Shown: positions 10,587 to 41,017, numbered from the stretch's first letter. The stretch: 64,000 nucleotides of DNA from an uncultured Alphaproteobacteria bacterium (GCA_902515765.1 CABXVZ010000003.1:1-64000), one strand, 5' to 3'. The notes: a model not told the origin generated them from the sequence alone. A program made the numbers and translations.

Positions 10587-11621
10587 ATGGATAAAATAGT
10601 TTGTAAAAATATATGGAAGATATTTGGAAATAACGAAAAAAATATATTAAAAAATCTCGACCTTAAACTATCAAGAGACGAGGTTCAGGAAAAAACAGGT
10701 CATGTGGTAGCTGTAAAAGATGTTAGCTTCTCTATCCAAAAAGGTGAAACTTTCGTTGTTATGGGTCTTTCAGGAAGTGGAAAATCTACTTTAGTAAGAT
10801 GTCTTACAAGATTAATTGAGCCTACATCAGGTTCTGTAATAATAGATGATACTGATGTAACTAAAATAAGTAGAAATAAATTATTAGATCTGAGAAGAAA
10901 TAAAATGAGCATGGTGTTTCAGCACTTTGGACTTTTTCCGCATAGAACTGTTCTTGAAAATATATCTTATGGTTTGGAAATAAGAGGAGAAAGAAAACAA
11001 GATAGATTAGACAAAGCCATGGAGTCTTTAAATTTAGTAGGCTTAAAAGGATGGCATAATAATTACCCAAGAGAATTATCTGGAGGTATGCAGCAAAGAG
11101 TTGGTTTAGCTCGGGCTATGGCAGTGGAACCTGAAATTTTAATATTCGACGAACCATTTTCAGCTTTAGATCCTCTCATTAGAAGAGAAATGCAAGATGA
11201 ATTACTAGATATTCAAAGAAAACTACAACGCACTATGGTTTTTATTACTCATGATTTTCTAGAAGCTATAAAAATGGGAGATCACATTGCTATTATGAAA
11301 GATGGTGAAATTTCTCAAGTTGGAACACCAGAAGAAATTGTCGCAAATCCAATCGATCAATACGTTAAAGATTTTTGTGAAGATGTTCCAAAATATAAAG
11401 TTTTAAGTGCGGGTAAAGTTATGAGAAAAGATTGTTCAGAAAAAGCAAAGAGTCTTTTTTTAGATAAAACAAAATGTATTAATGATAATGCTAAAATTGA
11501 AACATTGATTGATCAAATCTGCGAGAATGATACCCCCTATCCTATAATTGACTCTCAATCAGGTGAGTTAATTGGTGAAATAGATCGCACTATTGTTATG
11601 AAATCTATGAAATCAAACTAA
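10587..11621 (+). CDS. Glycine betaine/proline-type ABC transporter ATP-binding protein (ProV/OpuAA-like)
   Basis: VVMGLSGSGKSTLVRCLTRLIEPTSG, ELSGGMQQRVGLARAMAVEPEILIFDEPFSALDP; C-terminal CBS-like tail. Confidence 0.92.
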   Translation: MDKIVCKNIWKIFGNNEKNILKNLDLKLSRDEVQEKTGHVVAVKDVSFSIQKGETFVVMGLSGSGKSTLVRCLTRLIEPTSGSVIIDDTDVTKISRNKLLDLRRNKMSMVFQHFGLFPHRTVLENISYGLEIRGERKQDRLDKAMESLNLVGLKGWHNNYPRELSGGMQQRVGLARAMAVEPEILIFDEPFSALDPLIRREMQDELLDIQRKLQRTMVFITHDFLEAIKMGDHIAIMKDGEISQVGTPEEIVANPIDQYVKDFCEDVPKYKVLSAGKVMRKDCSEKAKSLFLDKTKCINDNAKIETLIDQICENDTPYPIIDSQSGELIGEIDRTIVMKSMKSN

Positions 11622-26096: not shown

Positions 26097-26978
26097 TTAT
26101 CCCTTTACAGCACCAGCAGTCAGACCGCTGATTAGCTGACGTTGAAAGAACCATATAATCATAAATAAAGGAGCAGTTGCTGAAACAACACTTGATACAG
26201 CCCACATGTAATTACCTCCATATTCAACTGTTCCTAGATAAGCATTTATCTTTGGAACCATTGTATAGTTTTCTTGATTAAGCAATAAAGCAGTCACAGT
26301 AAAATCATTATAGGCTAACATCATGCTAAATAAACCAGCAGTCACAACTCCAGGCCACATGACTGGCATAATTATAAAACGAAATGCTTGAAAGTATGAA
26401 CATCCATCAATTAATGCACTTTCATCAAGTTCTTTTGGAACAGTTTTAAAAAATGAATAAAGCAACCAGAGAGTAAAAGGTTGGTTAATAGCTACCAAAA
26501 CAATAATAGTTGTTGGAAGTATACCCCAAATATTTAATTGAAAAAATGGGAATAGATAACCTGAGACTAAAGTTATGTGAGGCATAGCTCTAAATATCAA
26601 TGCAGCAATTAAAATATAAAAAGTATATTTAAATGTCGATCTTGAAAGAGCATAAGCACCCAGAGTTCCAAGAAATAATGAAATTGTGACAACTGAAACA
26701 GTCACAATCATTGTATTCATCGTAGCTCTCCAAAACTCACCTTCTATCCAAGATTCAAAGTAAGCTTTTACAGTAGCTGTAGCTCCAGTTTCTATCAAAG
26801 TATTGAAGCCATTTAATGCATAAGTCCAATCAGATCTTGTGAAGAAGTCTGCCTTCACTTTAAATGAGCCCCATAGAGTCCACAGAAAAGGAAAAATTGA
26901 AATTGATAACCAAATTAATATAAAAATACTATTGAAGATAATAAGTTGTTTTGAATATCTGTTTATTTGTGATTCCAT
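26097..26978 (-). CDS. Sugar-type ABC transporter permease (MalG/CUT1-like)
   Basis: LDESALIDGCSYFQAFRFIIMPVMWPGVVTAGLFSMMLAYNDF EAA-loop motif. Confidence 0.9.
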   Translation of the reverse strand: MESQINRYSKQLIIFNSIFILIWLSISIFPFLWTLWGSFKVKADFFTRSDWTYALNGFNTLIETGATATVKAYFESWIEGEFWRATMNTMIVTVSVVTISLFLGTLGAYALSRSTFKYTFYILIAALIFRAMPHITLVSGYLFPFFQLNIWGILPTTIIVLVAINQPFTLWLLYSFFKTVPKELDESALIDGCSYFQAFRFIIMPVMWPGVVTAGLFSMMLAYNDFTVTALLLNQENYTMVPKINAYLGTVEYGGNYMWAVSSVVSATAPLFMIIWFFQRQLISGLTAGAVKG

Positions 26979-28007
26979 TTATCTCTCAGTTCTAAACTCT
27001 CTCCAAGTTCTTAATAGTACCGGTGTAAGTAAAATTGCTATTCCTATGATAGTTAGCATGGAAGTAGCTCCCGCAGATCCAAAGAGCATTTTATTTTCAT
27101 TTCTTAAATCTTGATAGATCATCCATGATAAAGATTGGGCAACTCCTTCAGCGGAGAAGCCAATAATTGGTTCAAATACTCTAAAATTATCCATCAGGCA
27201 AATTAACATTATAAAAGTTGCAACAGGATAAAGATGAGGAATTACGATGTAACGTACTCGCTGAAATCTAGAAGCTCCATCTATAAGAGCTGCTTCAATT
27301 GGATCCTGGGGCACAGTTTGTAATGCTGCATAGAAAACAATAAATGCAAAAGGTGTGTTATGCCATATACCATAAATAATTAGGGTAATCCAAGTTAAAG
27401 TACTTGAGGATTTTAAAGAAAGGTTTGGATCGTTAAAAAGAATTTTAATCGTAGCTCCAATAATACCTTGTGAGTCGATCATCCAAAATAATACTAGAGA
27501 TCCTATTAGTGGTGTAACAATCATAGGTAAAATTGAACCAAATATTGCGAGACCCTTTAAACTTTTTGCCAATGTATTAATACTTAAAGCTACAATAAAA
27601 CCTAAGATTATTACAGGTGGAGTGACTGCAAAACAAAAAGTTAATGTAAATAACATAGCTTTATAAAAAGGAAGATTCAAAACAATGTCTTTGAACTCAC
27701 TAGTAGATGATGAAGTATTCCAAGCTTCTCCAATTTCATCAAAAGCCAAATGATTTCTATCAGCGTACGTACCAAATCCGTTAAACCTGCCTAAGGGATT
27801 TTGTTCTTTTAATTTTTCAGTAGCTTCTACATCTACACGGACGTTTGTGGTACATCCGAATGGATCACAATTCTCCACTTCCATTAAAATCTGCTGATTT
27901 TCAATATGAAGAGATTGAAAAAAACTCGAAACAATGGGTAAGCCAATAAATAATATCATTGCAAGACCAGTTGGAAAAAAGAACCAAAAAAAGGTTTTAT
28001 GAGGCAT
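26979..28007 (-). CDS. Sugar-type ABC transporter permease (MalF/CUT1-like)
   Basis: DPIEAALIDGASRFQRVRYIVIPHLYPVATFIMLICLMDNFRVF motif. Confidence 0.9.
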   Translation of the reverse strand: MPHKTFFWFFFPTGLAMILFIGLPIVSSFFQSLHIENQQILMEVENCDPFGCTTNVRVDVEATEKLKEQNPLGRFNGFGTYADRNHLAFDEIGEAWNTSSSTSEFKDIVLNLPFYKAMLFTLTFCFAVTPPVIILGFIVALSINTLAKSLKGLAIFGSILPMIVTPLIGSLVLFWMIDSQGIIGATIKILFNDPNLSLKSSSTLTWITLIIYGIWHNTPFAFIVFYAALQTVPQDPIEAALIDGASRFQRVRYIVIPHLYPVATFIMLICLMDNFRVFEPIIGFSAEGVAQSLSWMIYQDLRNENKMLFGSAGATSMLTIIGIAILLTPVLLRTWREFRTER

Positions 28008-28026
28008 TATATTTATCTAAAAAAAA

Positions 28027-28053
28027 AGAGTGGACCATATAATGGCCCACTCT
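28027..28053 (-). terminator. Intercistronic hairpin plus T-tract between SBP and permease genes
   Basis: agagtgg-acca-tataa-tggc-ccactct, followed on the minus strand by a run of T (aaaaaaaaa at 28018-28026 on plus). Confidence 0.6.
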
Positions 28054-28076
28054 AACAAAAATAATTTATTTTTGGT

Positions 28077-29312
28077 TTATAAAAAACCCTGCTCAGTAGC
28101 TTTTGCTATATAAGCAGCTTCAACGTCGGCTAAAGCTTTTTCAGCAGACTCATTACCCTGAAGAAATTCCACTAATTCAGTGCTTAGTGCACCGTGCATT
28201 AAGCTCATATGTGGAAAGCTTGGATATGGTGAAGCGCCTCTACTAGCTGCATCAACAACAGGTCCAGCAGTATTACCACCTTTATAGTCTTTGATTAACC
28301 ATACTGTTGCATCAGCGTTACTGTTTGCTAACTCAGATGATGATGCCGCACCAACTAAAGCTCTAAAAGAAGCTTCTGCATTTTCATCAGAAGTGTTGGT
28401 AGCAATAGCAATACCATCCCACCAAAGTGTAGTAGCAGGCATACTTCCGCCACCTACGCTAGGGGAAGGAGCTAATCTTGTGTCAGCTCTAACTGCTTGA
28501 TCACCTTCGTCATCAAGTAAAGAGGAAGCTCCAGAGTTCCAAACGTGCATTAGTGCAAGGTTACCTGACTCCCACTCTTCTTTAACTGCGTTTGTATCTT
28601 GAGTTAAAAAATCGGGATTACTGACTTCTGTTAGTTTTTTCATAACATTAAGAGCTGCAACACCATTTTCATTATTTACGTTTGGTTGAGCTGATCCTGA
28701 TTTAAAAAATTCACCGCCATGACCGAGATACATGTTTACAAACTCTTGAGCTAGGTTCCATCCTGATTTAAATGCGCCTCCATAAGGGTTGGCCATTTTT
28801 CCAGAGTCTTTAATTTTTTGAGCAGCTGCAATAACTTCTTCATAAGTAGAAGGAACAGCTATTCCTAATTCATTAAGAATGCTTTCTCTGTACCAAAGAT
28901 GTTGTGCATTCGCCATAAAAGCTACTGCATAGATTTTTCCATCAATAGTAATTTTTTGATTATCATTTAAGTTAACACCATATTTTGCAACTAAGTCATC
29001 TAGTGGACGTAATAGACCGTCATTCATCAAAGGTGTTATTGAACCATTTGTAACTAATTTAGCTGAAAATTCTGATGGGTTTGCTGACAGTGCTGCTACT
29101 TGCAATTTGTTGTGATCAACAGAGTGCGTAACACTAAAATCTACTTCAGATCCTGCACAGCTTTTTACTTCATCCATAAAAATTCTGTATGTATTAAATT
29201 CATTAGCTAGAATGTTAATTGAACCTTCAGTAGGTCCACAAGGTGAATGACTACCTGCATAAGCACCTGAAGTCATAAAAGATAGCAATAAAGCTATTAT
29301 TAGTTTTTTCAT
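28077..29312 (-). CDS. Sugar-type ABC transporter substrate-binding protein
   Basis: MKKLIIALLLSFMTSGAYA signal peptide (start placed at the internal ATG); DGKIYAVAFMANAQHLWYRESILNELGIAVPSTYEEVIAAAQKIK. Confidence 0.9.
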   Translation of the reverse strand: MKKLIIALLLSFMTSGAYAGSHSPCGPTEGSINILANEFNTYRIFMDEVKSCAGSEVDFSVTHSVDHNKLQVAALSANPSEFSAKLVTNGSITPLMNDGLLRPLDDLVAKYGVNLNDNQKITIDGKIYAVAFMANAQHLWYRESILNELGIAVPSTYEEVIAAAQKIKDSGKMANPYGGAFKSGWNLAQEFVNMYLGHGGEFFKSGSAQPNVNNENGVAALNVMKKLTEVSNPDFLTQDTNAVKEEWESGNLALMHVWNSGASSLLDDEGDQAVRADTRLAPSPSVGGGSMPATTLWWDGIAIATNTSDENAEASFRALVGAASSSELANSNADATVWLIKDYKGGNTAGPVVDAASRGASPYPSFPHMSLMHGALSTELVEFLQGNESAEKALADVEAAYIAKATEQGFL

Positions 29313-29335
29313 ATATTTCCTTTTCTTATTCAAAA

Positions 29336-29348
29336 TGTGAAATTCACA
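29336..29348. promoter_or_regulatory. Palindrome TGTGAAATTCACA upstream of the sugar SBP gene (candidate operator)
   Basis: TGTGAA-A-TTCACA perfect arms in the SBP/LacI divergent promoter region. Confidence 0.4.
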
Positions 29349-29396
29349 ATTGAGTATATATCCTTTATATTAATATAACTAAATATTGCAATAATA

Positions 29397-29421
29397 TGAA
29401 TATATATTCAATAGTTTGAAT
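29397..29421. promoter_or_regulatory. Candidate operator array TGAAT-N4-ATTCA-N6-TGAAT in LacI/SBP divergent promoter
   Basis: TGAATATATATTCAATAGTTTGAAT; shared architecture with 32112-32147 and 37733-37768. Confidence 0.5.
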
Positions 29422-29442
29422 AATGAAACAGGGGATAAAATT

Positions 29443-30444
29443 ATGAATTTTAATAAGACTGCGACATCACAGGACGTCGCTAAACTGGCTGGAGTATCAC
29501 AATCTGCTGTTTCCCGCTGTTTTACTAAAGGAGCAAGTATTTCAAGTAGAACGAAACTAAGAGTTTTAGAAGCAGCTAGAAAATTAAAATACAAAGCACC
29601 AAATATTTCGCAGAGCACAATTTCCAATGAAGATATTGGATTGGTTGGTGTTATACTTCCTTACGTAACAAGTAGATATTACCCAGAAGTATTAACAGAG
29701 TTACACGAAGCTCTTAAGTTAGGTGGTTTTAGAATTCTACTAATAACTACTGATGACGGTGAAGAGTTAGATGAAAAATTAGTTCAACCCTATTTAAAAG
29801 AAAAATTAATAGCTATCATTTCAGCGACGAAACCAACAGAAAGTTTTGTTGAGAGTTGTAATGCAAAAAGAATTCAATTTATTGCATATAATAGATCATG
29901 GAACATCCCCACTCTAAGTTCAGTAGCTTGTGATCACAAAAATGGTGGAGAAATGGTTGCAGAATATTTTATTAAAAATAATCATCAAAAAATTGGGTTA
30001 ATTGAGGGACCTAAGGGTTCATTTGTCAGTGATCAGAGAATAAAAGGCTTCAAACAATTTTTAAAAAATAATAAAAGAATTAAAATTTTTAACGAGAAAG
30101 GTTTTTTTACTTATGATGGTGGTTATCAATCTTGTCAAAAAATTTTAAAAAATAAAGGTGTTAGTGCTATATTTTGTGCAGATGATACAATGGCATTTGG
30201 CTGCCTCGATTACATAAAAAAAAATACAAAAATAAAAATTCCTAAAGATTTAGAATTAATTGGCTATGATGATATTTCAATGTCAAATTGGAAGTCATAT
30301 GATTTAACAACAGTCAAACAACCCATTAGACAAATGTCTAAGTTAGTCACTCAATTAATAGATGACTATATTAGAGATCCCGATTATGAAACCATAAATC
30401 ATATTGTTCGTGGTAGTCTAATTAAAAGAAAAACAACAAGATAA
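29443..30444 (+). CDS. LacI-family transcriptional regulator
   Basis: TSQDVAKLAGVSQSAVSRCFTKGASISSRTKLRVLEAARKLKY HTH; periplasmic-binding-like C-domain. ATG at 29443 preceded by GGGGAT is preferred over TTG at 29416. Confidence 0.93.
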   Translation: MNFNKTATSQDVAKLAGVSQSAVSRCFTKGASISSRTKLRVLEAARKLKYKAPNISQSTISNEDIGLVGVILPYVTSRYYPEVLTELHEALKLGGFRILLITTDDGEELDEKLVQPYLKEKLIAIISATKPTESFVESCNAKRIQFIAYNRSWNIPTLSSVACDHKNGGEMVAEYFIKNNHQKIGLIEGPKGSFVSDQRIKGFKQFLKNNKRIKIFNEKGFFTYDGGYQSCQKILKNKGVSAIFCADDTMAFGCLDYIKKNTKIKIPKDLELIGYDDISMSNWKSYDLTTVKQPIRQMSKLVTQLIDDYIRDPDYETINHIVRGSLIKRKTTR

Positions 30445-30457
30445 ATTTAAAATTTTA

Positions 30458-30877
30458 CTATTTAAATTTAAGTCCCATTTGTTCAAAAACACCATGATTA
30501 TCAACCATGACGTAATTATCTAAAAATTTATCCTCTTTGATTGTCCAAAAATCTGAAAACTGCATCTTAATTGATTTACCTGTAGGTTCCACACCTAGAT
30601 AAGTTCCACTATGAGTTCCAGTTAAAAAACCTGTTGCACTAATCCATTCACCTTCTGCAACAACAATATCATTTTTTACATGATAGTCTGGAAATGCATC
30701 ATAAAAAGGTTTTAAAACCTTATATTTAAAATTCTCTATACCATGAATATCCCCAAAACCTGGAGGTCCATGCCAAACCATATCGTCGTGCCAATATTTA
30801 TGATGAGCCTCTAAGTCTTGTGCATTTAAAGCTTCATACATGTCTTCTAGTAATTTTTTACTTTCGTTTATATTCAT
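30458..30877 (-). CDS. SnoaL/NTF2-like protein (ester cyclase-type), single domain
   Basis: EALNAQDLEAHHKYWHDDMVWHGPPGFGDIHGIENFKYKVLKPFYDAFPDYHV, GTHSGTYLGVEPTGKSIKMQFSDFWTI. Confidence 0.85.
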   Translation of the reverse strand: MNINESKKLLEDMYEALNAQDLEAHHKYWHDDMVWHGPPGFGDIHGIENFKYKVLKPFYDAFPDYHVKNDIVVAEGEWISATGFLTGTHSGTYLGVEPTGKSIKMQFSDFWTIKEDKFLDNYVMVDNHGVFEQMGLKFK

Positions 30878-30879
30878 TT

Positions 30880-32061
30880 TTATCCCCTATTATTAATTTT
30901 ATCAAAATTGAGAGAACTTTTTTTATCAGCTAACAATTGAATCAATATTGCAAGTTCATTAAAGCCCGTCCATTCTTTGATAATTTTATTATTTTTGATT
31001 TCCCATTGAGTGATACCCCAAAGATAGCACTCTCTATTAGTAGGTGCTCCATAAATGCCATTTCCTTTGTGGGTTCCAACTGCACCCCATCGAATTGATA
31101 CTAAATAGCCATCTTGAGCATTGCCCATCCAATAGAGATCTTCAATACTAAGTGCAAGGTCTGGAAAGCAAGCAACCATTGAAATAATAAAATTTCTAAG
31201 ATTGTCTATTCCTTTAAACTTTCTTCCTGTTGATCCCTCAAATTCTACGTTATTAGCATAGGCATTATTTAGAGCTGAAAAATTTCTTCTATTCCAAATG
31301 GTATCATAAACTGCATGGACAAACTCTCTGAGATTTTTAATATTGTTAGGAATTTCATAACTAATTGGTTTTAGTTTTGATATTTTTCTTTTGGGTTTTG
31401 TTTTTTTAAAATCAGGTGCAAAGGGACCCCTAACTCCTTCATTGGCAATTTGTTTTGCAACTTCATGTAAATCTAGACCTAACTGTTTTATTAAACCTGC
31501 TGTATCATAGACAACATTTTCATAATAAATTTCATTATTTTTAGCTACACAATTTGCGATACAAAATAATCTGACAGTTTTACCTGTTGGTTTTGAAAAC
31601 TTACTAAAACCTGTGTTGGTTCCTGTAATTATAGTTCTATGAGAGGTATGGAAACTAGTCTTTTCATCTCCAGCCCAAATCACTTCATCTGCAAATAATC
31701 TAATATCAGGGAATGCATTATTTGTATGAATAGTATCAGAAACTATTTTTTCTGATCCAGATTGTAGTCCAAATTCATCCCACACAAGGCAATCAGGGCT
31801 ATATGTGTCATAAATATAACCAATATTCTTTTCTTCCCAAATAGTGTGCGTAATTCTTACAATATAGTCGATTATATTTTTATATTGTGTTTCAAAACCC
31901 TTCATTGATTGAGGATTTAATTTTTTTGGAGAAGGGTTTAGTGATTTTGAAGTGCCTCCTCCTCCATAGGCTTTTAGTGAAATATCAAAATTTTGAGGCA
32001 TATGATGATCTTTTAAATCATCAGGTCTTTTATTTTTTAATTTATTTAATTTATTATTCAT
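30880..32061 (-). CDS. Double-domain SnoaL/NTF2-like protein
   Basis: Two SnoaL units (TIWEEKNIGYIYDTYSPDCLVWDEFG... and TIWNRRNFSALNNAYANNVEFEGSTG...). Confidence 0.8.
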   Translation of the reverse strand: MNNKLNKLKNKRPDDLKDHHMPQNFDISLKAYGGGGTSKSLNPSPKKLNPQSMKGFETQYKNIIDYIVRITHTIWEEKNIGYIYDTYSPDCLVWDEFGLQSGSEKIVSDTIHTNNAFPDIRLFADEVIWAGDEKTSFHTSHRTIITGTNTGFSKFSKPTGKTVRLFCIANCVAKNNEIYYENVVYDTAGLIKQLGLDLHEVAKQIANEGVRGPFAPDFKKTKPKRKISKLKPISYEIPNNIKNLREFVHAVYDTIWNRRNFSALNNAYANNVEFEGSTGRKFKGIDNLRNFIISMVACFPDLALSIEDLYWMGNAQDGYLVSIRWGAVGTHKGNGIYGAPTNRECYLWGITQWEIKNNKIIKEWTGFNELAILIQLLADKKSSLNFDKINNRG

Positions 32062-32111
32062 AATAGATGAAGATAAAAATAATATTTATTTTAACAGATA
32101 CAATTAAAATA

Positions 32112-32147
32112 ATTCAATTTAATGAATTAATATTCAAATAAATGAAT
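32112..32147. promoter_or_regulatory. Candidate operator array ATTCA-N6-TGAAT-N4-ATTCA-N6-TGAAT between divergent SnoaL genes
   Basis: attcaatttaatgaattaatattcaaataaatgaat. Confidence 0.5.
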
Positions 32148-32174
32148 ATTGTTATTTAAAAATTAATATAAGTT

Positions 32175-33188
32175 ATGGCTGTGCAGAATTTACAAAATGA
32201 AAAAAAAATAGTTTTAGATTATTTCAATAATCTTGATAATTGCAAAAATGAAGATTTAGCAGAGATAATATCTAATCATACATCAAAGAATTTTCATATG
32301 AGATGCACTCATCCTTTTAATGAAATAAAGGGGCCAGAAAATGTAGCAAATCAATTATGGTTACCAATTAGAGACTCCTTTAAACCAATTCAAAGAAGAT
32401 TAGATATTTTCTATGCTGGAATAAACTCATTAGAAGAAAATCCAGGTGTATGGATTTCATCTATGGGTCATCTAATGGGTGTTTTTAATAAAAGTTTTTT
32501 TGGTTTACAACCTAATTACAAATCATCACTTTTAAGATTTGCTGAATTTTACAAAGTTGAAGATAATAAAATTACTGAAGGAGCTATTTTTTTAGACATT
32601 TTCAATTTCATGCAACAATTAGGTCTTTCCTTTATTCCAGAATCAACTGGTTTAGTTTGTGTAACTCCTGGTCCAATGAATCATAAAGGATTAAAATTTG
32701 AATTATCTGAAAATGGTGAAAGTATTAAAACTCTTGAAGTTATTCATAGAATGCGTGACCGATTGGTCAAAGGATCTAAAATGAAATCATTTAAGGAAGA
32801 ATTAGAACTGGATTGGAAAAAAGATATGATTTGGTGGGGACCTGGTGGAATTGGTGCTTCATATACAATAGATGGTTATACCAGAGGTCATACAAAACCT
32901 TTTGAAGAGGGTTTGGAGTTTGTTAAATTTAATGGACATATTTTAAGCAGTGCTGAAGATGATTTAGGTGGTTGGTTTGGCTGGCCAAACCTTATTATGA
33001 AATCAAAAGGAGGCTATCTTGGTTTAACTAGCCCTAGCAATATTGAGTCAGAAATGCGTGTAGTGGATTTATATAGAAGAGATGGGGATAAAATTGCTGA
33101 AAATTGGATTTTTATTGATCATCTTCATTTTTTAAAACTACTTGGAATAGATCTCTTAGAGAAAAATAAATCAATCTCTAGAACATAA
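32175..33188 (+). CDS. Double-domain SnoaL/NTF2-like protein
   Basis: Paralogous to the other SnoaL genes: WLPIRDSFKPIQRRLDIFYAG, GHLMGVFNKSFFGLQP, KDMIWWGPGGIGASYTIDGYTRGHTKPF. Confidence 0.8.
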   Translation: MAVQNLQNEKKIVLDYFNNLDNCKNEDLAEIISNHTSKNFHMRCTHPFNEIKGPENVANQLWLPIRDSFKPIQRRLDIFYAGINSLEENPGVWISSMGHLMGVFNKSFFGLQPNYKSSLLRFAEFYKVEDNKITEGAIFLDIFNFMQQLGLSFIPESTGLVCVTPGPMNHKGLKFELSENGESIKTLEVIHRMRDRLVKGSKMKSFKEELELDWKKDMIWWGPGGIGASYTIDGYTRGHTKPFEEGLEFVKFNGHILSSAEDDLGGWFGWPNLIMKSKGGYLGLTSPSNIESEMRVVDLYRRDGDKIAENWIFIDHLHFLKLLGIDLLEKNKSISRT

Positions 33189-33214
33189 AATTTTAAAAGC
33201 AATAAAAGAAAAAT

Positions 33215-33907
33215 ATGCCCAAAATAATTTTGATTTCAGGTTATATGTGTGATGAAACAATATGGCAATCTACTATAAAAACATTCAAAAATAATTATGA
33301 ACTAATAATTCCCTCTTTAAAGAATTACAAAACAGTTGAAGAAGCAGCAAAAAGTATTGGTCGACACATAGATATTGATACTTCAATAATTGGTTTTTCA
33401 ATGGGAGGATTTATTTCACTGCAGTTAGCTATAAAACATCCAGAATTTATCAAAAAATTAGTCATAGTTTCCTCTAATGGAAGAGGTATTTCCAAAATAA
33501 GAGAGAAAAAACTCAATAAATATTTAAAAGAGTCTAATCAAAATAATTTTGCAGATTTGTTTTATAAACTTCACTTCGATATTTCATTTTCAAAAAATTA
33601 TTTAGATAATAAAAAATATCAAAATGAATATTATGAAATGACTAAAAATTTAGGATATCAAACATTTAAAAATCAAACTAATTTAATACTTAATAGGCCA
33701 AATCAATTACAAAATTTAAAACAAATAAAATCTAAGACTTTAATAATAAATAGCTCGGAGGATAAGCTTTCTCTTTTAAGTATGAGTAAAGAATTAAAAG
33801 AAAAAATTAAAAATTCTAGACTAAAGATGATAAAAAATAGTTCTCATTTTGTAATGATAGAAAAACCAAAGATATTTAATAAATCTTTAATAGATTTTCT
33901 GAAATGA
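33215..33907 (+). CDS. Alpha/beta-hydrolase
   Basis: IIGFSMGGFISLQLAIKHPEFIKKLVIVSS nucleophile elbow; C-terminal NSSHFVMIEKP. Confidence 0.88.
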   Translation: MPKIILISGYMCDETIWQSTIKTFKNNYELIIPSLKNYKTVEEAAKSIGRHIDIDTSIIGFSMGGFISLQLAIKHPEFIKKLVIVSSNGRGISKIREKKLNKYLKESNQNNFADLFYKLHFDISFSKNYLDNKKYQNEYYEMTKNLGYQTFKNQTNLILNRPNQLQNLKQIKSKTLIINSSEDKLSLLSMSKELKEKIKNSRLKMIKNSSHFVMIEKPKIFNKSLIDFLK

Positions 33908-33908
33908 A

Positions 33909-35039
33909 TTAAATTTTTTTTGATGCTATCATTGTTCCCTCTACTAGGGATTTTAACTTTTCATAACAAATTTTTTCATCAACTTTACCAAAACCAGCAA
34001 AAGTACTAAAACCACAATCTGCACCAGCCATAATTTGTTCTTTTGAAACAACTTTTGAAAATTGAATAAGCCTATCTGAGACAAGATCAGGATGTTCAAC
34101 AAAATTTGAAGTAGAATCAATTACACCAGGTACAACAATTTTTTCTGAGGGTAATTTTATATTTTCAAAGACTTTCCATTCATGAGCATGCCTAGGATTA
34201 GAGGACTCAATTAACAAGTATTTAACATTAGCTTTTAAAATAATCGGCAGTATTTTCTCAAGAGGAATATCAAAAGTATGAGGTCCTTCATAATTACCCC
34301 AACAAATATGCATTCTTATTTGATCTGAAGGAATGCCTTTTAAGGAATAGTTTAGTGCCTCAACCTGTCTTTCAGCTCTCTTTAAAAACTCATTATCAGA
34401 TAGATGTTTGTAATTCATATGTCTAGCAAGTGCTAAATCTGGACAATCTAATTGGAGGTGCAAATTACTTTTGATAATGGCTTGGTATTCAAGAGACATC
34501 ATATTAGATAATTTCTCTAAATATTCGTCATCGTCTTTATAAAATTTGTTTGGCATGAAAATATTTATGACCCCAGGTGATGCTGAATTCATGAAACCAT
34601 TAGAATGATTAAATTTTTTTAGAACATCAGTGAAGTTTTTAATATCAGATTTAAGGGAGTCTTCATCTTGAATTTCTAATTCGCTCGTACAACAAGGTCT
34701 TACATAGGTAGGTGTACCTCCACTTTTTGCAATTTTTATTTTATATTCACCAAAGGCATCAAGATCTGCTGGAGCTTTTCTTTCGCTCTCCCCTGAGAAG
34801 CCTTTAAGACGATCTTTGATATAAGTTGCATAACTAATTTTGCTCATTTCACCATCACTAATAATATCTATACCTACTTCTAATTGTTGCTTAACAACAT
34901 TTTCGACATTTTTTTTAACTTCAAAATCAAATATTTTTTTGTCAAAGGTTTCTTTTTTATCTTTTGCAAAAAGTAATTCAGATAATTCTTTAGAACGAGG
35001 TAGACTTCCAACATGAGTAGTGAGTATGGATGAGGTCAT
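33909..35039 (-). CDS. MetE C-terminal-like (cobalamin-independent methionine synthase / EaCoMT-like) methyltransferase
   Basis: TTHVGSLPRSKELSELLF, IRMHICWGNYEGPHTFDIPL, LIESSNPRHAHEWKVF, MAGADCGFSTFAGFG (His/Cys/Glu/Cys Zn-site pattern). Confidence 0.88.
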   Translation of the reverse strand: MTSSILTTHVGSLPRSKELSELLFAKDKKETFDKKIFDFEVKKNVENVVKQQLEVGIDIISDGEMSKISYATYIKDRLKGFSGESERKAPADLDAFGEYKIKIAKSGGTPTYVRPCCTSELEIQDEDSLKSDIKNFTDVLKKFNHSNGFMNSASPGVINIFMPNKFYKDDDEYLEKLSNMMSLEYQAIIKSNLHLQLDCPDLALARHMNYKHLSDNEFLKRAERQVEALNYSLKGIPSDQIRMHICWGNYEGPHTFDIPLEKILPIILKANVKYLLIESSNPRHAHEWKVFENIKLPSEKIVVPGVIDSTSNFVEHPDLVSDRLIQFSKVVSKEQIMAGADCGFSTFAGFGKVDEKICYEKLKSLVEGTMIASKKI

Positions 35040-35050
35040 ATTTAAGAAGT

Positions 35051-35764
35051 TTATTTTTTACCCATAAAATTTCTATATTTCTCTTTAAATTTTTTTATAG
35101 AGATTTTCTTATTCATACTTAAATAATCAAAAATGATATTTTCTTTTTTTATTAATTTAGAAATAGCATCAGGTAGTTTTTCTAAGTTTTCTCTTTTAAT
35201 GACAACAGCACCGTGAAGGTCTGCGTGAATTAGATCATTAGGTGAGACTTCCATATCGAAAATATTGACTTTACAATTTATTTTATGGATTTGATTATAT
35301 CCATGACCTACTCTAATTTCTCCACTTAAAATTTGAAATTTTTTATCAATTGAACCTAAATCTCTAACAGCTCCATTGGTTACAGCACCCTCAAAGCCAA
35401 AACGGTGGTGAATTGTTGCATTAACCTCCCCCCACCAGGCACCAATAGTGTTGGTTTTATCTTTATCTTCTATTACACAAATTTTTGGATCTGTGCCTTC
35501 ATGCATGTATTCATAATAATTTTCTCTATTTTTATTAATATTAGTATTCTTCTTCTTTCTAGAGGTAATGATAGCTGTTTTAGCAAAACCAATTATAGGT
35601 CTATGTATGGGGTTAGAACTAATCATTGTTTTATTTGTAAAACCTTCTTGACGAAGTAAGGGGTCAATTATTTCAAGAGAGTTAGAAACAGTTGGAGTAT
35701 CGAACTTTCTTATAAAATTAATAATTTTTTTTTCTTTAGAAGAAAGTTTAATGGGGTTATTCAT
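35051..35764 (-). CDS. RraA-like / 4-hydroxy-4-methyl-2-oxoglutarate aldolase family protein
   Basis: GAVTNGAVRDLGSID, DLIHADLHGAVVIKRENLEKLPDAI; internal ATG at 35764 overlaps the upstream stop, so likelier than the track start at 35794. Confidence 0.8.
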   Translation of the reverse strand: MNNPIKLSSKEKKIINFIRKFDTPTVSNSLEIIDPLLRQEGFTNKTMISSNPIHRPIIGFAKTAIITSRKKKNTNINKNRENYYEYMHEGTDPKICVIEDKDKTNTIGAWWGEVNATIHHRFGFEGAVTNGAVRDLGSIDKKFQILSGEIRVGHGYNQIHKINCKVNIFDMEVSPNDLIHADLHGAVVIKRENLEKLPDAISKLIKKENIIFDYLSMNKKISIKKFKEKYRNFMGKK

Positions 35765-36735
35765 TAACCAGTTTTTAACAAAATTTGTTTCCAAATACTA
35801 GTTTCATCAAATAATACCCATTCATTTTTAATACCCCGCGGACCGAATTCAGCATGAGAAATACCCATTACATATACATCAGCATGACTTGGTTCACCAA
35901 AATTACCAGAACCAGAGTGTATCCCACTCAAGGACCATCTTACAGCAGCTTTAGCATATTCGTTAGGTTCATTAAGAAAACTTACATGTTCTATTTTGAA
36001 ACTTGCATCTGGAAATGCGGATAAAAGAGATGACCAAAAAGTTTTGACATCCTGCCATCCATAACCTGTAAAACCACCAGGTTGTTCCTGATTAATAGCT
36101 CTATCGTAACAATTTTCAATTGTATCTAAATTTTTACTAAAAATATTTTTTAAAATATCAGCATATTCATAGCCAATATTTTGATCAGGTAATTTTATTT
36201 GAGTATATTTTAAATCTGGATCTGTATTTTTATTAAAAGGAATTGGACAATTATCTAACCCCCCTTGATTTTCAATTAATTGAGTTGCATAGGTTTTAGG
36301 GTCTAAGTTTAATTGTCGAATTATTGAACCTTGGTCTCTTACAAGCCACTCGTCATAAACTTGGTTATTTTTACAAGCACAATCAGCTATTACTCTGTAA
36401 GTAAGTTTTTTACCTGTAGCTTCACCATATACACCATTATTTGCATGTGTAGCTCTAGATAAAATTCTATGAGAGGAAAGATAGCCTTCGGTATCATTGC
36501 CGATCCAAATAACATCTTCACCCAATAATTGACGATCTGGGAATTCTTTTAAAGTTGCATAGGTAGCTTTAACAACAGTTTCTGGACCGTAGATTATACC
36601 ATCTGGAAATCTTACAGGTATTCCTTCAGCATAATATTGCATGATTGACTCCACATCTTTTTCTTCCCAGATTTGGTAGGTTATCTTCAGGATATAATCA
36701 GGGAAATCTTTAAACTTCTTGTCAAAACCTTCCAT
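35764..36735 (-). CDS. Double-domain SnoaL/NTF2-like protein
   Basis: TYQIWEEKDVESIMQYYAEGIPVRFPDGIIYGPETVV..., second unit with AFPDASFKIEHVSFL. Confidence 0.8.
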   Translation of the reverse strand: MEGFDKKFKDFPDYILKITYQIWEEKDVESIMQYYAEGIPVRFPDGIIYGPETVVKATYATLKEFPDRQLLGEDVIWIGNDTEGYLSSHRILSRATHANNGVYGEATGKKLTYRVIADCACKNNQVYDEWLVRDQGSIIRQLNLDPKTYATQLIENQGGLDNCPIPFNKNTDPDLKYTQIKLPDQNIGYEYADILKNIFSKNLDTIENCYDRAINQEQPGGFTGYGWQDVKTFWSSLLSAFPDASFKIEHVSFLNEPNEYAKAAVRWSLSGIHSGSGNFGEPSHADVYVMGISHAEFGPRGIKNEWVLFDETSIWKQILLKTG

Positions 36736-36742
36736 AATAAAA

Positions 36743-37714
36743 TTAGTTTTTTTGGCGAACTATAAAGACACTTCCATCTTTACCACTGATATTTTTTATA
36801 CTTCGAGTTGAATTTTTAGGAGAAGAAAAGGTATCTTTAGATCCAATAATAACTTTTTGATCATCGCAGGTAATTTCCCACTCTCCTTCTAAACATAGAA
36901 ATATTTCAGACTCAGCTAATGTATATGGGTGAATATGAGAATTTTCGCCTTTTAATAAAGTTAGTCCAAATCCAGTGTTATGTTCAATTAAAGGGCTTAG
37001 ATCTTTTTCATGAATTTTGAAATTATCAATATAATTTAAAATTGTATTAGAATTAAAATGTCCATCGTCTTGAAGGTATTTATCATGATCTTTTGCACGG
37101 ATTACAAACTTTTCTATTTCCTCAGAAGTATAATTATCAAATTTATCTAATTCGTTATCTTGAATTGGTTTTATAGCACTCTTACCCTCTGGAATATTAT
37201 TTTTATCTAAATCTATTAAGGAATTATCATCTAAAAGAACCATTCCTGAATCTTTTGCTTTTTTTAGTAATGATGGTGTCCATGTAATTACACCTGGGTC
37301 GTTCTCACCTAAAACCACAAATAAGTGGGCGTCTTGATCGCTGACATTTTGAAAACCTCTAAACATATTAGTTGGGAAAGAAGCCACATCCCCTGCGTTA
37401 CAGACAACCTCGCCTTCTTTACCTTCGGTACCCCAATAAAATCGCCAGGATCCAGAAAAAATTAAAAAAACCTCAGCTGTAGTATGACTATGAAGACCTG
37501 AGCCATTCATGGGAGCTGCTCTTACAGCACCAATATTAAAACCATGTTCTTCTGCTATTTTGACACTTTGTTTAGTATCTTCACTTACGCCTGGGCCAAC
37601 TATAGAATAATTAGACCTATCTTGATGACCTTTTAATTTACCTTCAACAAAAGGAACTTCACTGGGAATAAGATCTTTAAATTTTACTAAACGATTTTGG
37701 ATATCTGCTGTCAT
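36743..37714 (-). CDS. Cupin-domain protein (two cupin-like segments)
   Basis: MNGSGLHSHTTAEVFLIFSGSWRFYWG and GENSHIHPYTLAESEIFLCLEGEWEIT. Confidence 0.85.
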   Translation of the reverse strand: MTADIQNRLVKFKDLIPSEVPFVEGKLKGHQDRSNYSIVGPGVSEDTKQSVKIAEEHGFNIGAVRAAPMNGSGLHSHTTAEVFLIFSGSWRFYWGTEGKEGEVVCNAGDVASFPTNMFRGFQNVSDQDAHLFVVLGENDPGVITWTPSLLKKAKDSGMVLLDDNSLIDLDKNNIPEGKSAIKPIQDNELDKFDNYTSEEIEKFVIRAKDHDKYLQDDGHFNSNTILNYIDNFKIHEKDLSPLIEHNTGFGLTLLKGENSHIHPYTLAESEIFLCLEGEWEITCDDQKVIIGSKDTFSSPKNSTRSIKNISGKDGSVFIVRQKN

Positions 37715-37732
37715 TTTTTAAAATATTTTTTT

Positions 37733-37768
37733 ATTCATTTTTTATGAATATTATTCATAATATTGAAT
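37733..37768. promoter_or_regulatory. Candidate operator array ATTCA-N7-TGAAT-N3-ATTCA-N6-TGAAT in cupin/SnoaL divergent promoter
   Basis: attcattttttatgaatattattcataatattgaat. Confidence 0.5.
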
Positions 37769-37817
37769 AAATCAATTTAATATTATATTAATTGTGAATA
37801 AATAAAGGAAATATTCT

Positions 37818-38912
37818 ATGAGCAAAATTGAAAATTTTACAACGGGAATTCCAATGGATAGTAATGCAAAAATTATAAATTTGGACCCTCAAACAAACAT
37901 ATTAAATAAAAAAAAGATAAGAAATTTATTAAAAAATATAGTTGAGTCCAATGATCAAAGTTTAAGTGAAAATATCAATAATGCATATCATGAGAATGCT
38001 ACAATTAATGCCTTTCATCCCATTAATGATTTAGAGGGAATTTCAGATATTACAAATAAACTTTGGAAGCCTCTCTTGCATTCTTTTCCAGATCTGGAAA
38101 GAAGGGATAATTTAGTTATTGGAGGAAGTTTTCAAAATAGAGTTTATGTTGCAACAGTTGGACATTTAACGGGTACTTATACTAACCCTTGGTTAAATGT
38201 GCCTACTAGTGGCAAAACAATTCATTTAAGAATTTGTGAAGTACATCAAATAGAAAACGAAAAAATTATTAATTCTCATATCTTAATTGATATCATGGAC
38301 TTTATTCGTCAGGCTGGATTTTGGACCGTTAACCCCTCATTAGGTATTGAAGAAATGTGGCCAGGTCCCATTACTGGTGAAGGAACAACATTTGAAAACT
38401 TAGATTTAAATCTGTCAGCTGCCTCTCTAGACCAAGGTTTAACAATGCAAAGAAGTCTTAATATTAAACCAGAAACCGATCCTGATGCTACTAAGGATTA
38501 TGTGAGAGAAAAATTAATTGACCACCCTCAAAAAGATTACTGGCACCCAAAAATGATGTGGTACGGTCCTTGCGGTATAGGAACAGCCAGGGGATTAAAA
38601 GGTTTTGTTGAACATCATCAATTGCCATTTAGATTAACTTTTAAAGAAAGAGATTACTGGAAAATTGGGCATTATATAGAAATAGGTGATGGTAATTTTT
38701 CTATGACTGGTGGATGGCATAGCATTCAATGTGTTCATGGATCAAGTGATTGGCTTGGATATGAAGCAACAAAAAAAACAGTAACAATGAGAGTGATGGA
38801 TTTTTATTTACACCATGAAGGGTTAATAAGAGAAAATTGGGTACCAATTGATATAGCTCATATTTTGTATCAGTTGGATGTGGATGTTTTAAATTTGATA
38901 CATAAAAAATAA
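37818..38912 (+). CDS. Double-domain SnoaL/NTF2-like protein
   Basis: LWKPLLHSFPDLERRDNLVIGGSF, GHLTGTYTNPWLNVPTSGKTIHLRICEVHQIE, HPKMMWYGPCGIGTARGLKGFVEHHQLPF. Confidence 0.8.
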   Translation: MSKIENFTTGIPMDSNAKIINLDPQTNILNKKKIRNLLKNIVESNDQSLSENINNAYHENATINAFHPINDLEGISDITNKLWKPLLHSFPDLERRDNLVIGGSFQNRVYVATVGHLTGTYTNPWLNVPTSGKTIHLRICEVHQIENEKIINSHILIDIMDFIRQAGFWTVNPSLGIEEMWPGPITGEGTTFENLDLNLSAASLDQGLTMQRSLNIKPETDPDATKDYVREKLIDHPQKDYWHPKMMWYGPCGIGTARGLKGFVEHHQLPFRLTFKERDYWKIGHYIEIGDGNFSMTGGWHSIQCVHGSSDWLGYEATKKTVTMRVMDFYLHHEGLIRENWVPIDIAHILYQLDVDVLNLIHKK

Positions 38913-38914
38913 AT

Positions 38915-40237
38915 ATGGCAATTGAATATATTAAAAAAAGCACCAATGAAAAACAAAGGTCTGATGATAATGAAAAAGTCAAAGAGATTGTTGAAAATAC
39001 TTTAAAAGAAATTGAGCTAAGAGGTGACAACTACATAAGAGAACTCTCAGAGAAATTTGATAACTACTCCCCTTCTCACTTTAAGCTATCAGAAGAAGAG
39101 ATTAATGAATTAGTTAATGAAGTATCTGATGACGATATTGATGATATCCAATTTGCTCAAGAACAAGTTAGGTCATTCGCAATAGCACAATTAAAAACAT
39201 TAAATGAAATAGAACTACAAACTCAACCAGGAGTTATACTTGGTCACAAGAATATTCCAGTTCAAGCTGTAGGGTGCTATGTGCCTGCTGGGAAATTTCC
39301 AATGGTAGCCTCCGCTCATATGTCAGTCGTTACTGCATCAGTTGCTGGTGTACCAAGAATTATTGCTACCACTCCCCCTTTTCAAGGAAGACCAAATCCT
39401 GCAGTAGTTGCAGCAATGAAAATGGGAGGGGCACATGAAATTTATGTTCTTGGAGGCATGCAAGGAGTTGGTGCTATGGCTATTGGAACAGAAACTATAA
39501 AACCCGTAGATATGCTCGTTGGACCGGGAAATGCCTATGTTGCTGAAGCTAAAAGACAGTTGTATGGAAGAGTTGGTATTGACTTATTTGCAGGACCCAC
39601 AGAAACGATGGTTATTTGTGATGACACAGTGGATGCAGAAATATGTGCTACAGATTTACTCGGCCAAGCAGAGCATGGCTATAATTCCCCTGCAATAATG
39701 ATAACTAATTCTAAAAAATTGGCTCAAGAAACTCTTAAAGAAATAGATAGGCTTTTAGAAATTCTACCTACAAAGGATACAGCAAGTATAAGCTGGAGCG
39801 ATTATGGTGAGGTTATTTATTGTGAAACATATGAAGAAATGTTGTCTAAAGCTAATGAAATTGCTTCTGAACATGTTCAAGTGATGACTGATAGAGATGA
39901 TTGGTTTTTAGAAAATATGACTTCTTATGGGGCTTTATTCTTAGGTGCGAGGACTAATGTTGCTAACGGCGATAAAGTAATAGGAACAAATCATACTTTA
40001 CCTACTAAAAAAGCAGGAAGATACACTGGTGGATTATGGGTTGGAAAATTTATTAAAACACATACTTATCAAAAAATTACAACAGATGAAGCGGCAACAA
40101 AAATAGCAGAATATGGCTCAAGACTATCTCACTTAGAGGGCTTTATAGGTCACGCGGAACAATGTAATGTTCGTGCAAGAAGATACGGTGGTATTAATGT
40201 TGGATACGGAAAACCTGTATCTAAAATTAAAAAATAA
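38915..40237 (+). CDS. Histidinol dehydrogenase-family protein (catabolic HisD-like, e.g. HpsN-like alcohol dehydrogenase)
   Basis: VGCYVPAGKFPMVASAHMSVVTASVAGV, VDMLVGPGNAYVAEAKRQLYG, DLLGQAEHG; located in a catabolic cluster, not a his operon. Confidence 0.9.
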   Translation: MAIEYIKKSTNEKQRSDDNEKVKEIVENTLKEIELRGDNYIRELSEKFDNYSPSHFKLSEEEINELVNEVSDDDIDDIQFAQEQVRSFAIAQLKTLNEIELQTQPGVILGHKNIPVQAVGCYVPAGKFPMVASAHMSVVTASVAGVPRIIATTPPFQGRPNPAVVAAMKMGGAHEIYVLGGMQGVGAMAIGTETIKPVDMLVGPGNAYVAEAKRQLYGRVGIDLFAGPTETMVICDDTVDAEICATDLLGQAEHGYNSPAIMITNSKKLAQETLKEIDRLLEILPTKDTASISWSDYGEVIYCETYEEMLSKANEIASEHVQVMTDRDDWFLENMTSYGALFLGARTNVANGDKVIGTNHTLPTKKAGRYTGGLWVGKFIKTHTYQKITTDEAATKIAEYGSRLSHLEGFIGHAEQCNVRARRYGGINVGYGKPVSKIKK

Positions 40238-40249
40238 GTAAAATAAAGA

Positions 40250-41017
40250 ATGTATTTAAAAAGTTTTGATTTAAAAAATAAAATGGCACTAGTTACTGGT
40301 GCAGGAAAAGGCATTGGAAGAGCATCAGCGATAGCTCTAGCTGAAGCTGGTGCAGATTTAATTATTTTAAGTAGAACTGAGTCAGAACTTAAAAAAGTAG
40401 AAAAAGAAATAACAAAATTAAAAAGGAAATGTAAATTTTTTGTGTGTGATTTATTTGATGATAATCAAATAATTGATATTTTCAGTAAAATTAAGAAACT
40501 TGATATTTTAGTAAATAATGCTGGAACGAATATACCTGCACACTTTACAAAAATTAAAAAGAAAGATATGGATTATATGGTTGATTTAAATATCAAAGCA
40601 GCTTTTCAAGTAGCTCAATTAGCATCTAATGTAATGTTAAAATCCAAAAATAGAAAATTTATCGGAGGAAGTATTATTAATATGTCTTCTCAATTAGGCA
40701 AGGTAGGAGCTCCTAATAGAAGCACCTATAACATGACGAAGTTTGGAATTGAGGGATTAACTAAGGGCATGGCCATAGATTTAGCTTCTAATAACATTAG
40801 AGTAAACTCTATATGTCCTACTTTTGTTGAGACACCTATGGTTAAAAAGTTTTTTCTAGATAAAAGTTTTAAAAAGAAAACTTTAGAAAACATTCCTCTT
40901 GGTAGATTTGCCACTGAAAGTGATATCGCCACAGCTGTTGTATATTTGGCCTCTAATGGTTCGTCAATGATGACAGGATCATCTCTAGTTATAGATGGTG
41001 GATGGACAGCAAAATAA
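40250..41017 (+). CDS. SDR family oxidoreductase
   Basis: ALVTGAGKGIGRASAIALAEAGADL, NNAGTN, STYNMTKFGIEG, GSSLVIDGGWTAK. Confidence 0.95.
   Translation: MYLKSFDLKNKMALVTGAGKGIGRASAIALAEAGADLIILSRTESELKKVEKEITKLKRKCKFFVCDLFDDNQIIDIFSKIKKLDILVNNAGTNIPAHFTKIKKKDMDYMVDLNIKAAFQVAQLASNVMLKSKNRKFIGGSIINMSSQLGKVGAPNRSTYNMTKFGIEGLTKGMAIDLASNNIRVNSICPTFVETPMVKKFFLDKSFKKKTLENIPLGRFATESDIATAVVYLASNGSSMMTGSSLVIDGGWTAK

Follow-up and report, generated by a model that had tools for sequence, protein, structure and literature searches.

Four-Half-Site Arrays as Predicted Operators of a LacI-Family Regulator with a Degenerate Hinge in the Alphaproteobacterial Order HIMB59

Results

Three Divergent Promoters Share an Array of Four Half-Sites

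The window, that is, the whole stretch of 64,000 nucleotides analyzed here (GCA_902515765.1 CABXVZ010000003.1:1-64000), comes from the genome of an uncultured Alphaproteobacteria bacterium labelled order HIMB59. It encodes a LacI-family regulator of 333 amino acids (29443-30444, plus strand) within a locus that also holds genes for an ATP-binding cassette (ABC) transporter and for several SnoaL-like proteins. Three divergent promoters of this locus carry the same array of four short half-sites. We propose, with a probability of about 0.78, that these arrays are the operators of this LacI, which would be an autoregulated local repressor whose hinge/CpG readout has been replaced by binding to multiple half-sites.

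Each array is 36 bp long, palindromic overall, and of the form WTKCA-N6/7-TGMAW-N3/4-WTKCA-N6-TGMAW, with half-sites named H1 to H4 and no strand assigned. Array 1 (29386-29421, TTGCA-N6-TGAAT-N4-ATTCA-N6-TGAAT) ends 21 bp before the ATG of lacI. It separates lacI from the gene of a carbohydrate-type ABC substrate-binding protein (SBP; 28077-29312, minus strand, ATG near 29312), which shows a weak NgcE-like match and is conserved beside LacI. Array 2 (32112-32147, ATTCA-N6-TGAAT-N4-ATTCA-N6-TGAAT) lies between the genes of the double SnoaL-like protein Sno2 (30880-32061, minus strand) and the SnoaL-like protein Sno3 (32175-33188, plus strand). Array 3 (37733-37768, ATTCA-N7-TGAAT-N3-ATTCA-N6-TGAAT) lies between the genes of a two-domain cupin (36743-37714, minus strand, Pfam Cupin_2) and the double SnoaL-like protein Sno5 (37818-38912, plus strand). 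The positions and spacings given for these motifs in an earlier, sequence-only reading were all exact, and its observation that the three promoters share one arrangement is confirmed. It had, however, overlooked the fourth half-site of the LacI promoter, the degenerate TTGCA at 29386-29390; once this is counted, all three arrays measure 36 bp.

The distances between half-site starts are 11-9-11 bp at the LacI and Sno2/Sno3 promoters and 12-8-11 bp at the Cupin/Sno5 promoter. As H1-H3 (20 bp), H3-H4 (11 bp), and H1-H4 (31 bp, or 2.95 helical turns) are identical in the three arrays, H2 alone moves, by one base.

The caution that single half-sites are common is justified: TGAAT occurs 127 times and ATTCA 121 times in the window. 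Nevertheless, all four ATTCA-N6-TGAAT pairs of the window, its sole N7 pair, and every inverted TGAAT-N3/N4-ATTCA pair fall in these three intergenic regions. At the scale of the 965-kb draft genome, the pattern TGAATN{3,4}ATTCAN{5,7}TGAAT matches only these three places, and the reversed control pattern gives no match. The array thus has no further strict copy in unrelated intergenic DNA, a recurrence that would have spoken against the sequence-only reading. When up to three mismatches were allowed, a genome scan with the full 6-4-6 array returned arrays 1 and 2, plus one place elsewhere with three mismatches. With up to two mismatches, three four-half-site arrays were observed in the window versus 0.03 expected from first-order Markov shuffles, and 0.0016 are expected in sequence generated with the 86% AT composition of the three intergenic regions.

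The array ends are separated by 18-70 bp from the flanking start codons, distances at which the core promoter could well be blocked. That the arrays overlap −35 and −10 boxes is only suggested: sigma-70 promoter scans found 43 sites versus 50 in shuffles, that is, no excess.

The Regulator Has Kept Its Recognition Helix and Lacks a Canonical Hinge

The protein encoded at 29443-30444 has the domain architecture of the LacI family (Pfam LacI and Peripla_BP), with a helix-turn-helix (HTH) match to PF00356 (5.8e-11) and a periplasmic-binding-protein-like core matching PF13377 (4.3e-20). Its relatives in the Protein Data Bank (PDB) are CcpA, RbsR, and LacI structures. The HTH, GVSQSAVSRCFTKGASIS, is canonical. 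The segment that follows, KAPNISQSTISNEDIG (residues about 51-65), is a degenerate hinge or linker. Textbook accounts of LacI allostery and specificity rest on the hinge helix and on the CpG at the centre of the operator: usually, but not obligatorily, a PNxxARxL motif forms the helix, and its leucine enters the minor groove at the central CpG. This motif is absent from the LacI of the window.

Among the HIMB59 orthologs, the recognition helix GVSQSAVSR is invariant and the linker (residues 51-64) is hypervariable, with versions such as APNISQSTISNEDIG, PQTFLQDSQNIEDSG, and HQTIQHSFSSSVDGG. Conservation in the order reaches 4.15 bits per residue in the almost invariant HTH and 3.74 in the core, and is lowest in the linker (2.63). 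In relatives outside the order, described below, the linker (3.06 bits) stands above the core (2.82), with the HTH at 3.34. AlphaFold2, run with an alignment of 43 sequences, predicted no helix at residues 54-63 of the window protein, with a predicted local distance difference test (pLDDT) score below 50. With the same 43 sequences, a helix at 53-60, itself of modest confidence, was predicted for a canonical homolog (L195). The operator side matches this picture, as none of the 187 inverted array spacers of HIMB59 contains CG. Hinge decay, loss of the CpG, and outboard half-sites occur together in this one orthologous group. From these sequence comparisons, the hinge helix appears to have been lost in the HIMB59-order LacI and to have decayed to a flexible linker. 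The sequence-only reading had recognized the array and proposed LacI as its regulator, but had seen neither the missing CpG nor the decayed hinge.

The Arrays Are Conserved and Co-Occur with LacI

We searched related genomes, mostly partial single-cell assemblies and metagenome-assembled genomes. LacI orthologs with 68-96% identity were found in 68 of 150 genomes, and the genome collection provided 77 loci. One carrier, the single-cell genome AG-891-K05, is a reference genome within order HIMB59 (PMC10734472). In the window's own genus, LacI was found only in one genome (G031) among the relatives searched.

Conservation at orthologous promoters, which the sequence-only reading had named as a check, was found in tens of genomes. 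The full 6-4-6 array is present in all 78 LacI promoters examined, and the 7-3-6 array is kept in 69 of the 70 Cupin/Sno5 promoters extracted. In family f2, the orthologous Sno2/Sno3 array is mostly TTTCA-N6-TGAAA-N4-ATTCA-N6-TGAAT. Conservation is higher in the array columns than in the remaining intergenic sequence at the LacI (1.57 vs. 1.24 bits, p=3e-4), Sno2/Sno3 (1.82 vs. 1.58 bits, p=0.011), and Cupin/Sno5 promoters (1.82 vs. 1.16 bits, p=1e-7). The half-sites vary mainly by A or C at the third base (TGAAT/TGCAT), as they do outside the order. Relatives devoid of Sno2 and Sno3 also lack their promoter and its array, and the LacI array is retained where the SBP gene is a different one (about 40% identity).

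Among 149 related genomes, perfect arrays were detected in 65 of the 68 with LacI versus 11 of the 81 without it; within family f2 alone, the figures are 64 of 67 versus 7 of 31. We opened four LacI-less genomes carrying arrays (G057, G110, G124, and G135) and rejected them as cases of arrays lacking LacI: the contig holding the cluster ends before or near LacI.

Relatives outside the Order Pair the Same Half-Site with a CpG

LacI homologs with 30-37% identity were identified in alphaproteobacteria outside order HIMB59. Among the 20 loci fetched (L187-L206), across many alphaproteobacterial families, this outgroup LacI lies in most cases inside the same cluster, which comprises SBP, permeases, SnoaL, HpsN-like HisD, SDR, LacI, Sno4, cupin, MetE-like, hydrolase, and RraA-like genes. 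The recognition helix GVSQSAVSR, identical to that of the window protein, is found in most of these regulators, and a canonical PNxxARxL hinge in nearly all.

The palindrome TTGCAWNCGNWTGCAA is present in the outgroup loci in 18 copies at up to one mismatch versus 0.47 in shuffles; at two mismatches the scan was too noisy to separate signal from shuffles (62 vs. 54). Enrichment of the half-site pair is confined to spacer N4, with 23 matches versus 0-4 at every other spacer up to N8; a CG centre is present in 17 of these 23 pairs. Many copies of TTGCAWNCGNWTGCAA lie at cluster promoters or close to them; L188 and L189, for example, have three each. Judged by its sequence, the inner HIMB59 pair TG[A/C]AT-N4-AT[T/G]CA is the outgroup operator without its CpG. 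The shared half-site and N4 spacing, together with the mostly identical recognition helix, would tie the array to the linked LacI protein. The two groups have in common the gene cluster, in most cases the recognition helix, the half-site, and the N4 register. They differ in that nearly all outgroup regulators have a canonical hinge and the outgroup operator TTGCATNCGNATGCAA has a CpG, whereas both features are absent in HIMB59, and in that outgroup loci carry single or separated dyads, whereas HIMB59 promoters carry a compact four-half-site array.

The AT richness of HIMB59 genomes does not account for the loss of the CpG. The same genomes encode normal-hinge LacI paralogs (L066-L074), and the CpG-centred palindromes ACCAAAACGTTTTGGT or AGTAAAACGTTTTACT occur close upstream of seven of the nine paralog genes examined; as these paralogs retain CpG-centred sites, base composition is not the cause. 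The array is absent from the loci of these paralogs.

Discussion

Proposed Mechanism and Alternative Explanations

We propose that the LacI at 29443 represses its own gene and the nutrient uptake and catabolism cluster, and that repression would be lifted by an effector of the pathway. Each HTH would read a TG[A/C]AT half-site. The outgroup operator has two opposed half-sites on either side of NCGN, whose central CpG would be kinked by canonical hinge helices. In order HIMB59, a flexible linker would replace these helices; the arrays lack the CpG and have two further half-sites, outboard and at a fixed distance. The four half-sites, 8-12 bp apart over about three turns, would lie on one face of the DNA and might be filled cooperatively by two dimers; affinity and specificity, no longer provided by hinge helices, would then come from the filling of all four. 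The joint control of uptake and the SnoaL cluster by this LacI, already put forward in the sequence-only reading, is supported by array conservation, co-occurrence, cluster linkage, and the outgroup operator. The evolutionary part of the proposal, to which we give even odds, is that the HIMB59-order LacI independently lost the hinge helix and CpG-kink reading and came to recognize four phased half-sites cooperatively instead, with no CRP partner. Since the relatives' intact operators are visible, such a loss can be positioned on the gene tree.

Several points weigh against this reading. As orthologs share ancestry, the conservation counts are not independent trials, and as the LacI gene and the cluster are linked, co-occurrence alone cannot name the regulator. 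The decayed linker could still fold on DNA. Moreover, the pairing of half-sites is ambiguous between everted N6/N7 pairs and a central inverted pair with outboard halves. At the Sno2/Sno3 promoter, two half-sites have changed jointly, to TTTCA..TGAAA, which speaks for everted pairs. The inner inverted pair is favoured by the register seen in the outgroups and by the central spacer of array 3, which is near-invariant as AAT/ATT.

The latter pairing leads to the explanation that the arrays are ordinary LacI operators, with one dimer on the central TGAAT-N3/4-ATTCA, outboard halves that are promoter elements, and a CpG loss that is tolerated. In a comparison of 1303 LacI regulators, 1251 had even palindromes and 1173 a central CG, and about 20% of operons were preceded by more than one site (PMC4052901). 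Departures are known in the same set (49 with a different centre, 29 with a degenerate one, and about 4% with odd palindromes), and the central pair of HIMB59 keeps the outgroup register. However, the outboard half-sites roughly equal the central ones in conservation and occur at every promoter at a fixed distance, and it is the hinge helix, the part reading the centre, that has decayed; we consider a plain single-dimer operator unlikely. Another regulator encoded elsewhere might also bind the arrays, LacI being a mere neighbour. HIMB59 genomes do encode further LacI-type proteins, the half-site is short and AT-rich, and a separate palindrome adjoins array 1. This is nonetheless improbable, as the outgroup families pair the same half-site and spacing with a linked LacI of mostly identical recognition helix, and the paralogs examined in HIMB59 genomes show operators of another kind, centred on CpG, beside their own genes and no array at their loci. 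Finally, the abundance of single half-sites might suggest that the arrays merely reflect chance, or repetition due to base composition, in AT-rich intergenic sequence. We give this virtually no weight: it is refuted by the uniqueness of the arrays in the genome, by the shuffle and composition expectations given above, and by conservation at orthologous promoters while the flanks diverge.

Comparison with Known LacI-Family Regulators

The multi-half-site repressor that we propose has a parallel in CytR, a LacI-family protein that is used together with CRP and is described as having relaxed half-site spacing and an interdomain linker that is flexible and unstructured (PMC3454398). CytR sites are reported as inverted or direct repeats with TGCAA/TTGCA-type half-sites (Jorgensen 1998, as cited in PMC3454398), and the protein is cited as a rare exception (PMC2978694). 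The HIMB59 LacI is CytR-like in its decayed linker and split half-sites. CytR of Escherichia coli and other gammaproteobacteria, however, works jointly with CRP, whose sites flank its own; in the three promoters, no CRP-like TGTGA-N6-TCACA was found with up to two mismatches. CytR motifs are also weak and variable between genes, whereas the HIMB59 arrays are strict: variants with N3 or N4 and N6 or N7 exist, but the spacing is fixed per promoter. The protein scores 128.7 bits with the CytR model NF008269 of NCBIfam, below its cut-off of 436, and 187.7 bits with the RbsR equivalog NF047341, below its cut-off of 382. Given the CytR score below cut-off, the lack of a CRP-type site, and the strict arrays, we file it as a LacI-family variant and not as CytR. 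With RbsR, CcpA, PurR, and GalR, it shares domain architecture, HTH, predicted autoregulation, linkage to ABC transporter and catabolic genes, and TG..CA half-sites. It differs from them by lacking PNxxARxL and the CpG centre and by having four half-sites instead of one dyad.

This clade appears to have dropped hinge and CpG together while keeping the recognition helix and the regulon. It would offer a natural experiment on a repressor trading hinge readout for multi-site binding, with CpG-centred relatives from the same pathway and normal-hinge paralogs from the same genomes as controls, and it assigns a predicted regulon to a nutrient cluster of streamlined ocean bacteria.

The Gene Cluster and Other Sites

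The cluster of SnoaL, HpsN-like, cupin, MetE-like, and RraA-like genes, with the ABC transporter and LacI (26097-41017), is conserved, in rearranged form, across many alphaproteobacterial families. All its genes other than lacI, including those bordering the arrays, are predicted targets. On the minus strand, below position 28077 in window numbering, are the genes of a MalG-type permease (26097-26978) and a MalF/UgpA-type permease (26979-28007). Beyond lacI, in window numbering, is the gene of the SnoaL-like protein Sno1 (30458-30877, minus strand), and then that of Sno2. Sno3 is followed by an alpha/beta hydrolase (33215-33907, plus strand, Pfam Abhydrolase_1), then by three minus-strand genes encoding a MetE C-terminal-like protein (33909-35039, Pfam Meth_synt_2), an RraA-like aldolase family protein (35051-35794, Pfam RraA-like), and the SnoaL-like protein Sno4 (35764-36735). 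All five Sno proteins match Pfam SnoaL. After Sno5, on the plus strand, are a HisD-family dehydrogenase (38915-40237) and an SDR oxidoreductase (40250-41017). The closest solved structures to the dehydrogenase are those of sulfopropanediol 3-dehydrogenase (HpsN; PDB 8v35, E=8e-113), a likeness that does not fix its substrate. Literature searches on this cluster or motif returned nothing, and no operator of the cluster was described in the papers searched.

Between the SBP gene and lacI, at 29336-29348, is a perfect 13-bp palindrome, TGTGAAATTCACA, whose sole exact copy in the genome is this one. It is present in three further loci (L076, L077, and L102) and absent from five divergent loci checked, and it probably binds a different factor that acts on the SBP promoter. 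A four-half-site array also occurs at an unlinked divergent promoter between a sugar ABC SBP gene and SDR-GMC genes in two genomes, G101 and G065 (L154:5223-5258 and L239:8623-8658), to which the regulon may extend in some genomes. As five other checked genomes holding that transporter lack the array, we do not claim this promoter as a general member of the regulon.

Two other LacI-family proteins have altered hinges; as they rest on single loci or few genomes, we regard these losses as possible only and do not use them as proof. An alphaproteobacterial LacI devoid of the hinge motif (YATPSGQVASRVNLG, locus L241), for which no ortholog was found in its genus, has a CpG-less, AT-rich palindrome, TTGAAATAATTTCAA, at 7966-7980, about 25 bp before its start codon. 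The LacI of locus L205, with the altered hinge PSIIPQIML, has TTGCATAGCTATGCAA downstream (10873-10888), with GC and not CG at its centre; two of three related genomes retain TGCATAGCTATGCA.

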